The notes beneath the pieces are model-generated. The model saw only the letters and a list, made by a program, of their open reading frames with translations, was not told the DNA's origin and did not search any database. A stretch of 11,196 nucleotides of DNA from Moraxellaceae bacterium (GTDB lineage Bacteria; Pseudomonadota; Gammaproteobacteria; Pseudomonadales; Ketobacteraceae): positions 6,800 through 17,995 of the forward strand of contig NVVG01000080.1 in the NCBI GenBank assembly GCA_002402125.1, in the 5' to 3' direction. Both the position numbers and the translations under genes were made by a program. The first letter of the stretch is position 1. Each line of letters starts with the position of its first letter. Shown piece after piece: positions 1-11,196 of this stretch.

Positions 1-580
1 GTCCGGTAACATTACTGAGCTCAGTGTGCTGGCGGCGGCGCTGACGGAGAACAGCGATAATATTCGTAGTGTGTTGGATGTCATTAGCTCTATTTCTGCG
101 CAAACAAATTTACTGGCGCTCAATGCCGCCATCGAAGCCGCAAGGGCTGGTGATGCTGGGCGTGGTTTTGCGGTTGTCTCCGACGAGGTTAGAATGTTAG
201 CCCAGCGTACTCAAAAGGCGACGGACGAGATTTCTTTGATGACGGAGACCTTAAACAAAAGCACCGCGGCGATGTCGACACTGATTGAGTCAAGTTTAGA
301 CGGTGCAACTCAGTCCGTAGCGCAGTCTGAGTTGGCAAAAGAAGCTCTACTAGCCATAACCGCATCGGCGGAAGAAATCACTCGGTTTAATAAGATGGTG
401 GCTACGGCAACCGATCAGGAAAGTATCGCGGCGGGAGAAATTAGTAAATCCTTAGCCAAAATTGGGGTGCTTGCCGACGGTGTTACCGAGAAGCTGGCGC
501 AGACCAGTGATGCCTGTGTAGATCAGGGTACTTTAACCAAAGAATTAATTAAAACCGTCAATCAATTTAAAACAGATTAA
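1..580 (+). CDS. Methyl-accepting chemotaxis protein, C-terminal signalling domain (5'-truncated by window edge)
   Basis: This is the cytoplasmic signalling half of a chemoreceptor, which controls CheA kinase through CheW at the cell pole. The frame is open from base 2, so the gene starts before the window; the GTG at 26 is an internal codon, not a start. About 192 codons are visible. They contain the highly conserved hairpin tip ([17 protein letters not shown], then GRGFAVV and DEVR, roughly bases 100-200), followed by the descending coiled-coil arm with the heptad-like alanine, serine and glutamate pattern. The protein ends in VNQFKTD, and no CheR-tethering NWETF-type pentapeptide is present. 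It aligns without gaps to the end of the next MCP gene (offset 2051 bases). By hand count there are 47 differences in 580 bases and about 15 in 192 residues. The sensor domain lies outside the window, so the ligand is unknown. The family call is certain. Confidence 0.96.
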
Positions 581-686
581 GTTTATTTTTGATGTTCTAT
601 TTATAACTAAATACAGCTGAGGATCTATGCTGGTCCGTGATATGTTGGCTACCGACGGCCGACGTGATTCTTAGCGGGCTGAATTT

Positions 687-915
687 GGTCCTGTCTCAAA
701 CTCAATTCCCACCATTCAATAAATCCCGCTCCACCATCAATTCTTCAATATTCCAATAGCTTAGCGCATAAGCGCAGTACCAACGGAGGCATCGAAGAAT
801 AACTTCTTTTGGTGTATGCCGACCGTTGAATGGGTCATGAATGATTCTTTCCTGTCATAGTTAGAAAATCCATTCTAATACACGCTTGTCGGAGTGTGCT
901 GGATGTGACAGAACC
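687..915 (-). mobile_element. Internally deleted IS6-family insertion sequence (229-bp mini-element)
   Basis: This element lies in the gap between the two chemoreceptor genes. On the minus strand its left end reads GGTTCTGTCACATCC (complement of 901-915), which resembles the GGTTCTGT-type ends of IS6-family elements. The opposite end, on the plus strand at 687-701, reads GGTCCTGTCTCAAAC and matches the other end at 11 of 15 positions, so the two form terminal inverted repeats. About 60 bases inside the first end, a minus-strand frame begins with the IS6 transposase N-terminus, a spacing like that in intact IS6 elements (from memory). The rest of the transposase, about 200 codons, is missing, and the frame runs directly into the other terminal repeat. 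The flanks (679-686 and 916-923) do not show a clear 8-bp target duplication. This fits an old insertion or one that arose by recombination. The element cannot move by itself but could respond to a related transposase. Confidence 0.8.
702..854 (-). pseudogene. IS6-family transposase, N-terminal remnant
   Basis: Reading the minus strand from 839 down to about 720 gives a peptide containing DPFNGRHTPKEVILR, then LRWYCAYALSY, then IEELMVERD. This matches, in order, the start of IS6/IS26-type transposases (the NPFKGRH, RWYC, SYR and ERG landmarks recalled from the family), which lie in the DNA-binding region ahead of the DDE catalytic core. The frame is open from 854 and stops at 702-704, after about 50 codons. 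There is no in-frame ATG ahead of the conserved part, and no catalytic residues are left. Similarity is lost after ERD, which marks the probable deletion junction around 715-725. It is non-functional as a transposase. It was identified by reading the minus strand directly and is too short to stand out as a gene. Confidence 0.82.
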
Positions 916-1014
916 AGAATATATTTTGCAGCTGTGTTATTGTTAACCAATCTATTGACTAGTTTAAATTATTATGCAATTTGTTTATCAACATAGGTTT
1001 AATAATTATAAATT

Positions 1015-2631
1015 ATGCAGTTTTTTAATGATCTATCCGTAAAATGGAAGATATTAACCTTGGCGTTGGCCGCAATGCTGGGGTTGCTGGTCAATGCCCT
1101 GTCCAGTTATCAAGCCATAAATCATTATGAAAACCAAGTTATCAACATTAAGGCGCAGCATAATCCAGCCATTGCTGCCTTTGCCGCGATAAGTTTAGGC
1201 ATTGGGACTTTAGCCACAAAATTGAGTGACGCCATTGTATTAGAAGATGAAGATGAGCTGGCGGATGCAGAAACTGTGCATGCCGATATCATCGCGGATA
1301 TTAGCTCGTTGGTTGTATTGGTACCGGATAATGGGGTTGATACGCTGTCATTGGAATTGTCTGATTACTACGATTTTACCCATGCATTAGCCACAACTAT
1401 CGTTAATGATGAGGCCGATGACGATGAGATGCAGGACAATCTCCTCTCAACAGGAGCCAAGCTGCGAAAACTTAAGGCAAGCGCTATCACCTTAAGAGAA
1501 GAAGTCATCGTTAGTTTTAATGCAGAAATTGAACACTCGGTTAGCAAAGGTCGGCGTTTGTTTGTCTTTAGCTTGGGTATGTTTGTCTTGGCACTGATTG
1601 TGTTATTGGCTCTTGGCTTACTGGTGTCGTCGAAAATAACCCGATCCATTTTAGATGTAGCCGATAGCCTGCAAAACATGGCAGAAGGCTCAGGGGATTT
1701 GACGGTGAGGCTTAAGGTGGCTTCTAAAGACGAAGTGGGTATGTTGACTGGGCATTTTAATGACTTTGTGGGTAAATTACAGGGCATTGTTCTCCATGTA
1801 AAAGAATCCTCATCGGCAGTGAGCAGCGTGGCGGAAAATACCATTGCCGAAATGCAACTTACCGCGGCAAGTATCGACGAACAACGAGGCTGGACCCAAG
1901 AAGTGGCTGTTTCGGTAACCGAAATGTCCGCGACCCTCGATCAACTCGCGCAACATGCGGGTAACGCGGCAAAAATAGCGGTGGATGTGGATCAGCACTC
2001 AAGATCTGGGCAAGATCAGGTTGCGCAGACCTCGACCACTATAACCGCCTTGTCCGATAATATTACCGAGCTCAGTGTGCTGGCGGCGGCGCTGACGGAG
2101 AACAGCTATAATATTCGTAGTGTGTTGGATATCATCAGCTCTATTTCGGCGCAAACAAATTTACTGGCGCTCAATGCCGCCATCGAAGCCGCAAGGGCTG
2201 GCGATTCGGGGCGTGGTTTTGCGGTTGTCTCCGACGAGGTCAGAATTTTAGCCCAGCGCACTCAAAAGGCGACTGACGAAATATCGGTAATGACCGAGTC
2301 ATTAAATAAAAGCACCGCGGCGATGTCGACACTGATCGAGTCAAGTTTAGAAGGTGCAACTCAGTCTGTAGCGCAGTCTGAGTTGGCAAAAGAAGCTCTG
2401 CTAGCCATAACCGCATCGGCGGAACAAATCACTCGGTTTAATAAGATGGTGGCGACAGCAACCGATCAGGAAAGTATCGCGGCGAGGGGGATTAGCAAAT
2501 CCTTAATCAAAATTGGCGTGCTTGCTGATAGTGTGACCGAGAAGCTGGCACAGACCAGTGATGCCTGTGTGGATCAGGGTGCCTTAACCAAAGAATTAAT
2601 TAATACCGTCAATCAATTTAAAACAGATTAA
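1015..2631 (+). CDS. Methyl-accepting chemotaxis protein, full length
   Basis: A complete 538-residue inner-membrane chemoreceptor. The first membrane segment is at about residues 13-31. A periplasmic sensor of about 145 residues (35-180) follows, helical in character with an acidic patch near 77-85 and another at 132-139; it resembles a four-helix bundle and no ligand site can be named. The second membrane segment is at about 182-205, a HAMP linker at about 206-260, and the methylation and signalling coiled coil after that. The hairpin tip is at about 375-415 ([28 protein letters not shown]). The C-terminus VNQFKTD lacks a CheR-binding pentapeptide, so adaptation probably depends on other receptors or untethered enzymes. 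The ATG at 1015 is the only start that keeps the first membrane segment, because an in-frame stop lies just upstream, yet no good ribosome binding site precedes it. It is a close paralogue of the truncated MCP at the window start. Confidence 0.97.
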
Positions 2632-2953
2632 GTTTAACTCTGTGGTGTTATTTCTCGCTGGAAACGGCTGCTTCAAGCGCTCAGCTTAGGCAGGTCTTTG
2701 GCGTGATGGCGGCTAATGTAGGGGGGTTATTTTTCGCAAGCCGTATTTTCTGCGCTGATTAAATTCAGGTGTATGTTTCAAACTATTGACTAAATCCTGC
2801 ACCCTACTAATGAATGCAGCTAAGTGATTCATAATAGAAAGATTCCCGTTTTTTTAGCGGCCAAATTACTTGCTTTGTGGGCCTTGTTGACTACAGTTTA
2901 TGATGATCGCAGTCGATTTTTTTAATTATATTAAAAATATAGGAATACAAATC
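2632..2953. other. Intergenic region upstream of the barrel-protein gene
   Basis: About 320 bases without a convincing gene. The identity shared by the two MCP copies ends five bases after the stop codon (TAAGTTTA), and no stem-loop terminator follows. An imperfect dyad, ATGAAT at 2810-2815 paired with ATTCAT at 2827-2832 (CA/TG also pairing inside), sits about 120 bases before the start of the next gene and could be an operator. A T-run at 2850-2856 has no stem. The last 35 bases are very AT-rich, and a good ribosome binding site (AGGA, 2941-2944) lies nine bases before the ATG at 2954. No confident -35/-10 pair was found. Confidence 0.5.
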
Positions 2954-4078
2954 ATGAAAAAACTAGTCCGGTATTCACGGTCGATCAGCGTCATAATGAT
3001 GTTGCTGGTGCCCTGTTTTGGTTATGCCGCTACCCCAGAAATAAAGTGGTCTGGTTTCGCTACTCTAGGCACCAGTTTCACTAATTCTGAAACTACATAT
3101 ATTGATCAAGTCGATCGTGATGGCAGCTACCTCGATACCCGGTTGGGTCTTAATTTGTCGACTCGGCTGTCGAGTAAATTAACCTTAGGTGCGCAAATTC
3201 TTACTGCGGGTCGCGAGAACGAATTTGACGCTCATGCGGATTGGGTATTTGCGCGATATACCGCCACCAATAATATCTCCTTGTTATTTGGAAAGATGAA
3301 ATATCCCAATTTGCTCTTTTCCGAGTTCTATGATGTGGGCAATGTCTACCCCTGGGCTCGGGCACCACAAGAAGTGTATAATTTAGAAGGTGGTGGTGCA
3401 AACGCGCTGTATGAAGCCATGCAAGGCGGTAGTGTTATTTCTACCTTCGAGCCGGCGGATGATGTTGAGCTTTCTTTTCAGGCCTATTTTGGCTCGGCGG
3501 ATAGTGGCTTAGGTGAGATCAACAAGATGTTCGGTCTGGTTGCCAACCTACAAACTGAAAGTATGCAATTTAAACTCGGCTTCAATCGCGGTACCTTAAT
3601 TCCTGGTGCCGGCGGTCACGGTGCGGAAGAGGAAGAAGAGGAAGAAGAAGAGGGCGCTGAAGCGTTTCCTGATTGGGACGGCGCTACACCGGAAAAAAAT
3701 GTTCTATCGGCATCAATGATGATAGAAGAGGGCAACCTATTAGTCTTAGCCGAATATACCAATACCCAGTTTGATGGTTTTGATGATTATGAAATAGCTG
3801 CCGGTTATGCCACCATCGGTTATAGTGTCGATAAATTAATGCCTAGTATTACTGTGGCGAAATTAAAACGCGAAGATGGATTAGAGCAGGTGTCCACGAC
3901 GGTTGGTTTACGCTATGCCATGAGTTCGATGGTGTCGGTGAAGTTTGACGTGAGTCGGATTGTTGTTGAGCCGGCTACCGAGTTGGCCGATGATCATGAT
4001 CCAGCGGGTCTGTTCTTTGGGGGCACCCCGGAGAAGGACGTTCTAATGGGTACATTCACACTCGGCGTAGCATTTTAA
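2954..4078 (+). CDS. Porin-like outer-membrane beta-barrel protein
   Basis: The predicted product is a 374-residue exported protein. The start is set at 2954, not at the in-frame ATG at 2900. AGGA at 2941-2944 is well spaced from it, and translation from here gives a classic signal peptide: MKK, arginines, then a hydrophobic core to about residue 24, with cleavage after Ala25 or Ala26 (GYAA/TPE). The 18 extra upstream codons would bury this signal. The mature part has alternating polar and hydrophobic strands, many Gly and aromatic residues, no long hydrophobic helix, and a C-terminal Phe (TLGVAF), all typical of outer-membrane barrels. Residues 225-233 are nine consecutive glutamates flanked by GHGA and GAEAF, probably a surface loop. 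The next gene starts 17 bases downstream and codes for a periplasmic binding-type protein, so the pair probably handles one solute. The substrate is unknown. The barrel call rests on sequence character, not on a named family motif. Confidence 0.8.
   Translation: MKKLVRYSRSISVIMMLLVPCFGYAATPEIKWSGFATLGTSFTNSETTYIDQVDRDGSYLDTRLGLNLSTRLSSKLTLGAQILTAGRENEFDAHADWVFARYTATNNISLLFGKMKYPNLLFSEFYDVGNVYPWARAPQEVYNLEGGGANALYEAMQGGSVISTFEPADDVELSFQAYFGSADSGLGEINKMFGLVANLQTESMQFKLGFNRGTLIPGAGGHGAEEEEEEEEEGAEAFPDWDGATPEKNVLSASMMIEEGNLLVLAEYTNTQFDGFDDYEIAAGYATIGYSVDKLMPSITVAKLKREDGLEQVSTTVGLRYAMSSMVSVKFDVSRIVVEPATELADDHDPAGLFFGGTPEKDVLMGTFTLGVAF
3626..3652 (+). repeat. Poly-glutamate GAA/GAG tract
   Basis: Nine successive GAA or GAG codons inside the barrel-protein gene encode an unbroken Glu9 run in a probable extracellular loop, between GGHGA and GAEAFPDWDG. 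The tract is a 27-base purine-only stretch on the coding strand. Mixed GAA and GAG usage makes it less slippery than a pure triplet repeat, but length variation in steps of three bases would keep the frame. Such acidic loops could bind cations or repel anions; that is inference. Confidence 0.85.
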
Positions 4079-4095
4079 CTAGAGAGGTTATGACA

Positions 4096-4518
4096 ATGAA
4101 AATATTACCAATATTAGCCATTTCAGGCGCTCTCTTAACTCTGAGCTTTCACAGTGTTGCCGGTATCGTTGTAATTGGCAATGCAGCGTTACCTGATAGC
4201 ACCCTCAATAAAAAAATGGTGAAGAAGATTTTCTTAGGCAAGGCGCAAACAACGCCAGAAGGCGCGGATATCATTCCGGTTGACCAGGCGGAGTCGGCCG
4301 TAAAAGATGAGTTTTACAACAAAGCCACGAAAAAGACCCCCGCCAAATTACAACAGTATTGGATGAAGCGTGTAATGTCCGGTAAGGGTACTAAGCTGGA
4401 CGTCAAAGGTGATGATGCAGCCGTTAAGGCTTGGGTCGGTAGCAATGCCGGTGCCATTGGTTATGTCGATGACTCGGTGGTAGATGGCTCGGTGAAGGTA
4501 CTGTTTGCAGTGCCTTAA
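4096..4518 (+). CDS. Small PstS-like periplasmic substrate-binding protein
   Basis: The predicted product is a 140-residue secreted protein related to the phosphate-binding (PstS-like) periplasmic family but much shorter than full PstS (about 320 residues), so it is a single-domain version. AGAGAGG at 4081-4087 lies 8 bases from the ATG at 4096 but only 2 from the ATG at 4090, so 4096 is preferred. The signal peptide has a hydrophobic core at about residues 3-18 and cleavage after Ala22 (SVA/G). Family-like features are the opening VVIGNAALP, the KKIFLGKAQTTPEG segment, IPVDQAE, the KLQQYWMKRVMSGKGT segment, and the late SNAGAIGYVDDS motif, which corresponds to the GAIGYV motif of PstS-type proteins. 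It follows the barrel-protein gene by 17 bases and is very likely co-transcribed. No ABC permease or ATPase genes are nearby, so a role in sensing or scavenging is as likely as import. Phosphate itself is not proven as the ligand. Confidence 0.85.
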   Translation: MKILPILAISGALLTLSFHSVAGIVVIGNAALPDSTLNKKMVKKIFLGKAQTTPEGADIIPVDQAESAVKDEFYNKATKKTPAKLQQYWMKRVMSGKGTKLDVKGDDAAVKAWVGSNAGAIGYVDDSVVDGSVKVLFAVP

Positions 4519-7232: not shown

Positions 7233-9215
7233 TTATTTTGCCGAAGACAGCCATTGATTTAACTTGGATGTGAGCAGGTTAAAATCGATGGGTTTAGGAA
7301 CATAATCATCCATGCCAGCCTCTTCGCATAGATTGCGATCGAAGGAGGTGGCATTGGCGGTAACAGCGATGATAGGAATGTTTTTGATTTCTTCACTGGA
7401 CTGTCGAATATGTCGGGTGGCTTCAAATCCATCCATGATCGGCATTTGGCAATCCATTAAAATAATGTCGATGTGGTGGTTTTTTAGGGCGACAATGGCT
7501 TCTTCGCCGTTGGCGGCCGTGATTGCTTTTAAGCCATATTTCTCGGAGAATTTACGTTCCACCAATTGATTGACGAGGTTATCTTCTACGATCAGGATAA
7601 CCTTGCCGGTGGCAATTGATTTCACACTGGCGGCTTCTCGTTTAGCCGCACTGATGGCGCATTTTCGCAGCGGAATTTTTATCGTGACCGTGGTGCCATG
7701 GTCTTCCTCAGAGTCTACCGTTATGTTGCCATGCATTAGGTTTACTAGTGATTGGCAAAATGGCAGGCCAACTCCAAGCCCTCCGACGCGACGGGTTGAG
7801 GTTGATTTTACCTGCTTAAATAATTGGAAAATCAGCTCTTGCTTGTCGTGACTGATGCCAATGCCTTGGTCAGATATGGCAAAGGTGAAATTTAATAACT
7901 CGGTGTGATTGGGGTGTTCGGTTAAAATGGCGGTTATCGATATATTTCCCTGATGGCTAAATTTAATGGCGTTGTCTACTAGGTGCCAAAGTACGCGCAA
8001 AATTTGCGTGGCGTCACCGGTGAAGTGATCATTTAACCCGGTATTGATGTGGGCGGTGAATGCGAGTGATTTGTCTTCAGCTGCGGTTTTGCCTTCTTGG
8101 GTGACTTTGGTGAGGAGATCCGATAAACAGAAGCTGTTGTTTTCAAGTTTGAGGGTGCCCGCAATGGCCTCAGTCAGGATAAGAATGTTTTCAACTAGGG
8201 CGCATAAGTCTGCCAACGAACGGTTGGCGGATGACAGTAGTTCTTCTTGCTCACCGGATAAGTTTTCTTGTTGCAGTAAATAAAGCGACCCTTGTGCACC
8301 ATTAAGCGGTGTGCGTAATTCATGGTTAATGATGGTGAGAAAATCATCTTTGATTTGATTGCTAAAGGATAATTTTTCTAAGGATTGCCGTAAAGCCATG
8401 GTTCTTTGTCTTACCACGGTTTCCAGGGAGGTTTGATACATTTTTAATTGCAAATGTATCTTTACTCGGGCCAATAGCAGGGGGGCATTTATGGGTTTGG
8501 TAATGTAATCGACACCGCCGGCTTTAAACCCTTCTTCTTCGGCGCTGGTGACACCTTCTGAGGTGATAAAAATGACCGGGATTGCCTCGGTTGCCGGGTT
8601 ACTCTTGATGCGACGACAGGTATCGTAACCATTCAGGCCTGGCATGAGCACATCGAGCAGAATCAGTTGGGGTTGTCGTTCCAGCGCTAACGCCAGGGCT
8701 TGGTTGCCACTGGAAGCGACTTCTATTTTGTAACCTTCCTCGGAGAGAATCTGTTCCAGTATTACTTGCATCTCCGTGGCATCATCGACGATTAGAATGT
8801 CGGGGCGTTTGTTGGCAAGTCCCTTGGAATAAGATAAAGCGAGCCCCTGGCGTCTGGAGTGGATTGCAGCGTCGACTTTAAGGGATAGCAGGGCATCGTC
8901 AACGGGGCTTGCCAAGCATTCAAAGGCACCTAGTTTTAGGCCTTCTACGGCTTTGGCGGTTATAGCACAGTCTTTGCTCAGCACGATGACCGGTATGCTT
9001 TGAGTGTCTGGCTGTTGTTTTATGGCTTGGAGGGTGGAAAAACCATCAAATTTGTCGTCGTGGATGTCGATGACGATAGTTTCTGGTGTAAGTTGTTGGG
9101 CTAATTCGATACCGGCGGCGGCCGATTTTGCGCTATAAACCAAATAGCTTACCGATAAGATGGCGCCTATGAGTTCGCGGTTTGCTTCAGAGTCGCTGAT
9201 AATTAGAATCGACAT
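7233..9215 (-). CDS. Soluble hybrid histidine kinase, REC-REC-HisKA-HATPase-REC
   Basis: A 660-residue multi-domain phosphorelay protein without membrane segments, so cytoplasmic. Receiver 1 (about 1-122) is degenerate: Asp50 is kept at the phosphorylation site, but the usual KP motif reads SP (Ala-Ser-Pro, about 102-104) and the following loop is HDDKFDG instead of MPxxDG. Receiver 2 (about 138-257) is canonical, with Asp188 (LLDVLMPG) and Lys240. A short coiled linker leads to the HisKA domain with phospho-acceptor His298 (INHELRTPLNG). The ATPase domain shows an N-box (Asn415 in HLVDNAIKFS), G1 (Asp449, SDQGIGIS) and G2 (GGLGVGLPF, about 478-486). Receiver 3 (about 538-655) is canonical, with Asp588 (LMDCQMPIMDG) and Lys641. 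There is no PAS, HPt or output domain, so the signal probably enters through the N-terminal receivers and leaves to a separate HPt protein. A good AGG-containing site precedes the ATG. Its target genes are unknown. Confidence 0.95.
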   Translation of the reverse strand: MSILIISDSEANRELIGAILSVSYLVYSAKSAAAGIELAQQLTPETIVIDIHDDKFDGFSTLQAIKQQPDTQSIPVIVLSKDCAITAKAVEGLKLGAFECLASPVDDALLSLKVDAAIHSRRQGLALSYSKGLANKRPDILIVDDATEMQVILEQILSEEGYKIEVASSGNQALALALERQPQLILLDVLMPGLNGYDTCRRIKSNPATEAIPVIFITSEGVTSAEEEGFKAGGVDYITKPINAPLLLARVKIHLQLKMYQTSLETVVRQRTMALRQSLEKLSFSNQIKDDFLTIINHELRTPLNGAQGSLYLLQQENLSGEQEELLSSANRSLADLCALVENILILTEAIAGTLKLENNSFCLSDLLTKVTQEGKTAAEDKSLAFTAHINTGLNDHFTGDATQILRVLWHLVDNAIKFSHQGNISITAILTEHPNHTELLNFTFAISDQGIGISHDKQELIFQLFKQVKSTSTRRVGGLGVGLPFCQSLVNLMHGNITVDSEEDHGTTVTIKIPLRKCAISAAKREAASVKSIATGKVILIVEDNLVNQLVERKFSEKYGLKAITAANGEEAIVALKNHHIDIILMDCQMPIMDGFEATRHIRQSSEEIKNIPIIAVTANATSFDRNLCEEAGMDDYVPKPIDFNLLTSKLNQWLSSAK

Positions 9216-9435
9216 AGTGTCTTGCCTAGAACAGAGTCGGTATTCAATATTCAGTTTGTAGTCAGGTATCTTTCCAGTGTAGCTGGCTCTTCAGAATCTC
9301 TCTATATTTTAGGGTGTTTTTTTGAAGAGAGTGGAGTTGCTGTGAACGGTATAGGCGGAGTTGTCACAAATTCAAGAAAAACAAGTTAACTTAGGAAAGG
9401 CATTGGGAGTCTTCTAGCGGTAGATGAGTGGTTGG

Positions 9436-9516: not shown

Positions 9517-11196
9517 TTATTCCACCGTATAGGAGAAAGTCCCTTCTTCATTAACGTCGATATGAACATTGCTGATTTCGATACCATCGGCCATCCTGGA
9601 TAAGAACTCGCTGGCAAGTTCCGGCAAGATGGTACGAGAAATAATGTGTTCAATATTTCGAGCACCGGTATCAACTTCTTGGCTACGGGCAACAATGTGC
9701 AACGGCACATCTTCAGAGTAACTGAATGAGGCTCCATAGTGTTCTTTAACGCGCTTCTCGATACGTTTCATATTGAGACCACAAATCTTGATAAGATTCT
9801 CATCGTCTAATGGGTAGTAAGGGATGATATCCGCACGACCTAGGAACGCAGGTTTGAACCACTTGAGTAATTCAGGGCGGAAGTTATCCAGCAATACATC
9901 TGGCTCTGGTCTTTCGTCCGATGCGGCGCAAATAGCCCGAATCGCTTCTTCACCGGCATTGGAGGTCATGATAATAATGGTGTTTTTAAAGTCGATATCA
10001 CGACCTTCACCATCTTTTATTGTGCCTTTGTCAAACAGGTTGTAGAAAATATCCTGCACACCGCGGTGGGCTTTTTCCATTTCGTCTAACAATATGATGC
10101 TGTAAGGTTTGCGTCGAACGGCTTCGGTTAACACTCCACCTTCACCATATCCAACATACCCAGGAGGTGAACCAAGCAGCATGGAAGTTTTATGCTCTTC
10201 TTTAAATTCTGACATATTAATGGTGGTAACGTTTTGCTCGCCACCGTACATCATGTCTGCCAAGGCTAGGGCGGTTTCGGTTTTACCTACACCAGAAGGC
10301 CCAACCATAAAGAATACACCTATCGGCTTACGAGGGTCTCTAAGACCGGCTCGTGACGTACGAATCGCTTCGGCGATGGCCTCTAGCGCATGGGACTGTC
10401 CAATAACGCGAGTTTCCAAGTGTTCGGTGAGTTTGACGATATTTTCAATTTCATCGCCACCCATGCGTCCCACAGGCACGCCAGTCCATTGCTCTACTAC
10501 TTCGGCTACGGCTTGTGCGGTAACCACCGGTTGCATCAGCGGTAATTCACCTTGTAACTCTTGTAAATCAAGGGTGAGTTGCTTGAGCTCGGCTTTCAAT
10601 TCTACACGCTCTTCGTCGCTCAGGACGACAACTTCAGCACCTTCTGCTTGCTGGTCTTTATGGAGTTTGCCCAAAAAGTCTTTTTCGATCTTCTCACGGA
10701 TTTCGCGGATTTGAATGACAAAGTCTTTTTCTGCTACCCACTGAGTTTCAAGTTTTTCTAAACGAGTTTTCTCGGTAGTCATCTCAAGGTTGAGTTCTTC
10801 GATGCGTTCTTCACAGCCACCACTGGTGGCATCCTCTCGCTCTAACATGAGAATGTTGCGCTCACATTGCTCAACAAAACGGCGAGAATCTTCGATGGCA
10901 GCAGGTGTTGTACCTAGGCTGAGTGATACCTTGGCACAGGCAGTATCGAGTAGGCTGACTGATTTATCCGGGAGTTGGCGTCCAACAATGTAACGACTGG
11001 ATAACTTAACCGCTTGTTCGATGGCTTCGCCTAAAATACGGGTTTTATGGTGGGTCTCAAGCATTTTTGCAATACCACGCATCATGTCGATGGCGGTCTT
11101 TTCATCGGGCTCTTCAACTTTAACCACTTGGAAACGGCGGGTTAACGCAGGGTCACGTTCGAAGTACTTTTTGTATTCAGCCCAGGTAGTCGCGGC
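9517..11196 (-). CDS. clpV: ClpV/TssH, type VI secretion AAA+ ATPase (N-terminal part beyond window)
   Basis: ClpV is the hexameric ATPase that disassembles the contracted TssB/TssC (VipA/VipB) sheath of type VI secretion systems in the cytoplasm. The frame is open to the window edge at 11196, beginning with TTWAEYKKYFERDPALTRRF of the first AAA module, so about 559 residues of roughly 870 are present. Visible parts are the end of AAA1, a shortened coiled-coil middle domain (about 10560-10890), the WTGVPVGRM linker, and a complete AAA2 with Walker A GPSGVGKT (about 10279-10302), the pore-loop segment GSPPGYVGYGEGG, Walker B IILLDEMEKAH, and sensor motif MTSNAG. The linker GRMGGDEI and the C-terminal region (RPELLKWFKPAFLGRADIIPYYPL) fit ClpV better than the chaperone ClpB. 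No other secretion gene is within the window; they are expected to the right. The stop codon is followed by a stem-loop and then a change of gene content, so this may be the cluster boundary. Confidence 0.93.
   Translation of the reverse strand, partial: AATTWAEYKKYFERDPALTRRFQVVKVEEPDEKTAIDMMRGIAKMLETHHKTRILGEAIEQAVKLSSRYIVGRQLPDKSVSLLDTACAKVSLSLGTTPAAIEDSRRFVEQCERNILMLEREDATSGGCEERIEELNLEMTTEKTRLEKLETQWVAEKDFVIQIREIREKIEKDFLGKLHKDQQAEGAEVVVLSDEERVELKAELKQLTLDLQELQGELPLMQPVVTAQAVAEVVEQWTGVPVGRMGGDEIENIVKLTEHLETRVIGQSHALEAIAEAIRTSRAGLRDPRKPIGVFFMVGPSGVGKTETALALADMMYGGEQNVTTINMSEFKEEHKTSMLLGSPPGYVGYGEGGVLTEAVRRKPYSIILLDEMEKAHRGVQDIFYNLFDKGTIKDGEGRDIDFKNTIIIMTSNAGEEAIRAICAASDERPEPDVLLDNFRPELLKWFKPAFLGRADIIPYYPLDDENLIKICGLNMKRIEKRVKEHYGASFSYSEDVPLHIVARSQEVDTGARNIEHIISRTILPELASEFLSRMADGIEISNVHIDVNEEGTFSYTVE

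Follow-up and report, generated by a model that had tools for sequence, protein, structure and literature searches.

A 229-bp internally deleted IS6-family element beside a chemoreceptor gene in a Moraxellaceae bacterium

Positions 687-915 (minus strand) of the 11,196-nucleotide stretch of DNA analysed here (the window, G000:C210:6800-17995) hold an internally deleted element of the IS6/IS26 family, 229 bp in length, which retains its left end (915-901), the leader, about 37 N-terminal transposase codons and the right end (709-687). With a probability of roughly 90%, this is an IS6/IS26 element that lost its centre by internal deletion beside a chemoreceptor gene. A complete DDE transposase is absent, and the element is a derivative and not an autonomous member of the family. 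The original prediction, a 229-bp mini-IS6 with both ends and the start of the transposase but with the catalytic part gone, proved correct in its anatomy according to an IS6-end matrix, the NCBIfam model transpos_IS6 and 70% identity to a transposase encoded elsewhere in the genome, on contig C235. Coordinates are collected in Table 1.

Table 1. Features of the element and of the flanking receptor duplication (window coordinates).
Feature	Position	Strand	Evidence
Internally deleted IS6-family element, 229 bp	687..915	-	Both tips score as IS6 ends; the interior encodes an IS6 transposase N-terminus
IRL (left terminal inverted repeat), GGTTCTGTCACATCC	901..915	-	Top IS6-end score of the window; relatives' tips are GGTTCTGTCGCATCC or GGTTGTGTCGCATCC
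IS6 leader upstream of the transposase frame	839..900	-	Tip-to-gene alignment with L022, L030 and L003; partial with L027
IS6 transposase codons 4-40 as a remnant, frame-shifted against the start codon	720..830	-	tblastn, NCBIfam, alignments to relatives
Internal deletion junction, approximate; catalytic domain missing	710..719 (about 709-727)	-	Left-part alignments stop near 716-727, right-part alignment starts at 709
IS6 right end: terminal repeat and adjoining bases	687..709	-	21/24 alignment columns identical to the L076 right end (G001:C136)
Chemoreceptor duplication, second copy (gene 1015-2631)	921..2636	+	89% identity to copy 1; MCPsignal and HAMP domains
Chemoreceptor duplication, 3' part of first copy (gene ends at 580, starts before the window)	1..585	+	Gene at L004 5763-7379; homology between the copies spans L004 5670-7384

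Transposase remnant and terminal ends

Positions 705-839, read on the complementary strand, give 45 residues uninterrupted by a stop codon (HDPFNGRHTPKEVILRCLRWYCAYALSYWNIEELMVERDLLNGGN), of which residues 4-39 match positions 1-36 of transpos_IS6 with an E value of 2e-9 and 37.5 bits, a score below the whole-protein cut-off of 125, as that of any fragment must be. In tblastn the remnant was 70% identical to residues 4-40 of the 225-aa IS6 transposase on C235. Pfam did not recognise the 45-residue peptide as a transposase; in the full-length relative, its IS240 model matched nothing but residues 71-205. Aligned with the relatives L003, L022, L027 and L030, the remnant is out of register with the IS6 start codon, from which the peptide is therefore not expected to be made. 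The distance of 77 bp from the left tip to the start codon is the same as in L003 and L022, and in IS6 copies of this genome and genus GGTTCTGTCGCATCC or GGTTGTGTCGCATCC lies 77 bp before the transposase start (for example in L003, L011 and L033).

Two 15-base terminal inverted repeats matching at 11 of 15 bases had been predicted and were found, GGTCCTGTCTCAAAC at 687-701 on the plus strand and GGTTCTGTCACATCC at 915-901 on the minus strand. Like the terminal inverted repeats of IS6/IS26, which begin with GG and carry conserved TG and CA motifs, both begin with GG and contain TGT and CA; the consensus of IS6 ends is described in excerpts of PMC7986276 and PMC6807381. For a quantitative ranking, an end matrix was used that comprised 35 IS6-end variants, hand-picked from IS6 copies of relatives with several listed variants omitted, each weighted once irrespective of its frequency and all collected with a loose GG...T.T..CA pattern devised after both ends were known. 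Over both strands of the window, this matrix placed 915 first (16.8) and 687 second (12.4), with the third site at 10.4, and the assignment to the IS6 family was upheld both by the transpos_IS6 match and by these two tips being the window's best IS6-end matches. In first-order Markov sequence of 1,341,840 positions, a score as high as that of 915 arose once and one as high as that of 687 arose 18 times. End-like 15-mers, taken singly, are not rare: in its own genome the left end occurred with up to two mismatches at 12 places, compared to 6 for a reversed-pattern control. For the right tip, the same tolerance of up to two mismatches gave no further site in the own genome.

The right end resembles that of L076, an IS6 copy of congener G001 (Table 1) with the tip GGTTCTGTCGCAAAC, most of which is cut off by a contig end. 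The L076 right end comes after a transposase C-terminus, the final 24 residues before it aligning to the C-terminus of the C235 transposase (0 of 2000 shuffles were as good). When six genomes were searched with the 24-base end of L076 at up to three mismatches, L076 itself was the sole occurrence; the window's right end failed this search because it differs from the L076 end by a gap and two mismatches. At several bases the right tip differs from other IS6 right ends, agreeing for example with that of L028 at 10 of 15 bases in a hand count.

Copy number, relatives and comparison with known mini-elements

Within its own genome the element occurs once, and the sole further match, at 78% identity over 104 bp, falls within the C235 copy. 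The assembly amounts to 4.6 Mb in 302 contigs and is 87.1% complete, and a further copy may therefore have been missed. DNA matches to 687-915 were obtained in 6 of 57 genomes, the own included; all except the own full-length match were partial, none of the 56 other genomes containing a full-length one. We take the partial matches to be other IS6 copies, the top ones being 76-79% identical. A sample of the order gave matches in 7 of 293 genomes (own included), none of them better, with at most two candidates per genome scored among the matches listed. Searching plasmids with the DNA of 687-915 gave no match, and searching them with the peptide gave IS6-like matches in at least 5000 records, 4997 of the 5000 listed being below 60% identity. 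In summary, no closely similar parent element was found in the own genome, the 56 other genomes, the order sample or the plasmids. An apparently complete but diverged IS6 is present in the own genome on C235 (809 bp, with a 225-aa transposase frame). Both the ends and the body of 687-915 are diverged from the resident IS6.

Other copies are truncated in different ways. In the own genome, the C212 copy is gapped internally and yielded no right end, C87:3129 consists of an IS6 left end with a few codons, and at C87:8014 a left end is joined to codons 190-219; three IS240-domain matches on C276 are distant, two showing 33% and 30% identity in tblastn and the third giving no tblastn hit. Among congeners, the transposase breaks off after about 40-53 codons in L024, L029 and L031, and in L028 it is interrupted by a gap from codon 85 to codon 149; no right end was seen close to the break in genus copies such as L024 and L031. 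The IS6 copies of this genus therefore come in several truncated forms, and 687-915 looks like one relic among several. A scan of 72 loci used N-terminal peptides and therefore favours copies that keep the N-terminus, so no count of truncated copies is drawn from it. Just past the right end of the full-length C235 IS6 (L003 2264-2400), an apparent second, shorter IS6 N-terminal remnant was seen by eye.

According to excerpts of PMC7986276, IS6 members are mostly 700-890 bp long and have 8-bp repeats; in contrast, 687-915 measures 229 bp, lacks the catalytic domain and displays no target duplication, while sharing with them the N-terminal region of the transposase. The same excerpts mention two IS6-derived MITEs of 227 and 336 bp, and excerpts of PMC6807381 name MITEBth2 and MITEHarch3 as IS6-derived MITEs in ISfinder. 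As in these, both IS6 ends are present in 687-915 without a working transposase gene, at a similar size; unlike these, and judged by the MITE descriptions in the excerpts alone, it is present once and still contains a recognisable piece of coding sequence, and neither multiple copies nor other signs of mobilisation as a unit were found. As IS6-derived MITEs are already in print, the kind is already known. A comparable arrangement of left end, transposase N-terminus, deletion and right-end-like sequence was observed, with ends judged by eye among 14 loci, in L139 from an Alteromonadaceae MAG (about 361 bp, 1397-1757) and in L128 from Cedecea neteri (about 280 bp, 1426-1705), which differ from 687-915 in host and break points. 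The full mini form occurs once per genome in both cases, next to six partial matches in the L139 genome (the best covering 322 of 361 bases at 79%) and four in the L128 genome. The element at 687-915 is real but, as a single decayed copy, ordinary. Its significance extends little beyond annotation, although two ends and a diagnostic peptide suffice to recognise an IS6 relic of only 229 bp.

Origin of the element

In the favoured explanation, an IS6/IS26-family insertion sequence would have entered beside the chemoreceptor gene and then have lost its centre, with the catalytic DDE domain and C-terminus, through an internal deletion. Both ends and about 37 codons are left, and no transposase is made. 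The deletion presumably took place in situ rather than before insertion, and the 229-bp element is probably inert now. No 8-bp target duplication was found, the flanks agreeing at 2 of 8 bases, and insertion is therefore not demonstrated, either for the 229-bp unit or for a full element. IS6 transposase acts on the element tips, and the 229-bp element could therefore in principle serve as a substrate in trans. In excerpts of PMC7986276, IS26 and its transposons need not carry 8-bp direct repeats, and their absence is put down to intramolecular transposition.

The original prediction had further suggested a multi-copy, MITE-like derivative that an intact relative mobilises. This part was not supported, as the element is a single copy for which a second right tip, a close parent and a target duplication were not found; a multi-copy MITE is rejected on copy number in the own assembly and the 56 other genomes. 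A true IS6-derived MITE, that is a 229-bp unit inserted here by the transposase of an intact relative, would account for the retention of both ends and for a size near that of the 227-bp IS6 MITE mentioned in excerpts of PMC7986276, and the apparently complete IS6 with its 225-aa transposase frame on C235 might have provided the enzyme; however, the single copy, the missing target duplication and the divergence of ends and body from the resident IS6 make such an origin quite unlikely. It is very improbable that 687-915 is an IS6 fragment without its right part, beside whose break GGTCCTGTCTCAAAC occurs by chance. The truncated copies L024 and L031, which have no right end near the truncation, would fit such a fragment, and 11-of-15 matches alone are not very rare, the score of 687 being equalled at 18 of 1,341,840 random positions. 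Against chance, 687 is the second-best end of the whole window and is correctly inverted, and the IS6 right-end match extends to 24 columns, with L076 already nearly equal to 687-709. Internal deletion of an IS6/IS26 element therefore remains our preferred reading.

Receptor duplication and the surrounding insertion

Over 1716 columns, the chemoreceptor copies share 89% identity (L004 5670-7384 versus 7720-9435). Homology of the second copy starts at 921, the sixth base past the IS6 left tip, with five unmatched bases between. The closeness of the homology start to the tip may be coincidence, as the opposite homology edge, at 585, is five bases past the stop codon and stops 101 bases short of the element. 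That an IS6-driven rearrangement by the left tip set the edge of the receptor duplication or of the species-specific insertion, with the mini-element as its scar, appears unlikely; the meeting of tip and duplication border is a minor clue to the spread of chemoreceptor genes. Bases 586-686 show weak similarity to the stretch behind receptor copy 2 (equalled by 1 of 300 plain shuffles) and to that behind the PBP-like gene (8 of 300), and none to the stretch preceding receptor copy 1. The first receptor copy contains 18 N in L004 6440-6799, perhaps because the assembler did not fully separate both copies, and the assembly of the tandem pair should therefore be treated with some caution.

A role of the element as promoter for the second receptor was rejected, as no plus-strand promoter-like site was found in 560-1040. 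One minus-strand promoter-like site (946-918) lies just outside the left IS6 tip and reads into the remnant, a number that does not exceed the 1.9 sites expected from shuffles. No RNA family reached its gathering threshold, and folding of 687-915 as single-stranded DNA gave a weak signal (z = -1.74, 8 of 200 shuffles as stable).

Both receptors belong to an insertion of about 5.9 kb (window 1-4518 together with L004 5595-7379) which also encodes a porin and a PBP-like protein, the latter assignment being below the Pfam cut-off. It is flanked by a YjbR gene and a serine hydrolase gene of the Pfam Beta-lactamase family, whose counterparts, named by likeness to the window's genes, are at most 165 bases apart in all four congeners; the chemoreceptor/porin insertion is missing at this place in all four. 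The first 202 residues of the receptor were matched at an E value of 1e-15 or better in only 1 of 390 genomes of the order, namely twice in the own genome, with at most eight candidates per genome scored among the matches listed. Because the four congeners are without the whole receptor/porin insertion and, at this threshold, the receptor was matched in no other of the 390 genomes, an empty site for the element alone was not obtained. Around the insertion, a ClpB-type AAA ATPase (window 9517-11196) and an Hcp protein (L004 1361-1843; Pfam T6SS_HCP, E = 2.7e-36) are encoded, which suggest a type VI secretion locus.
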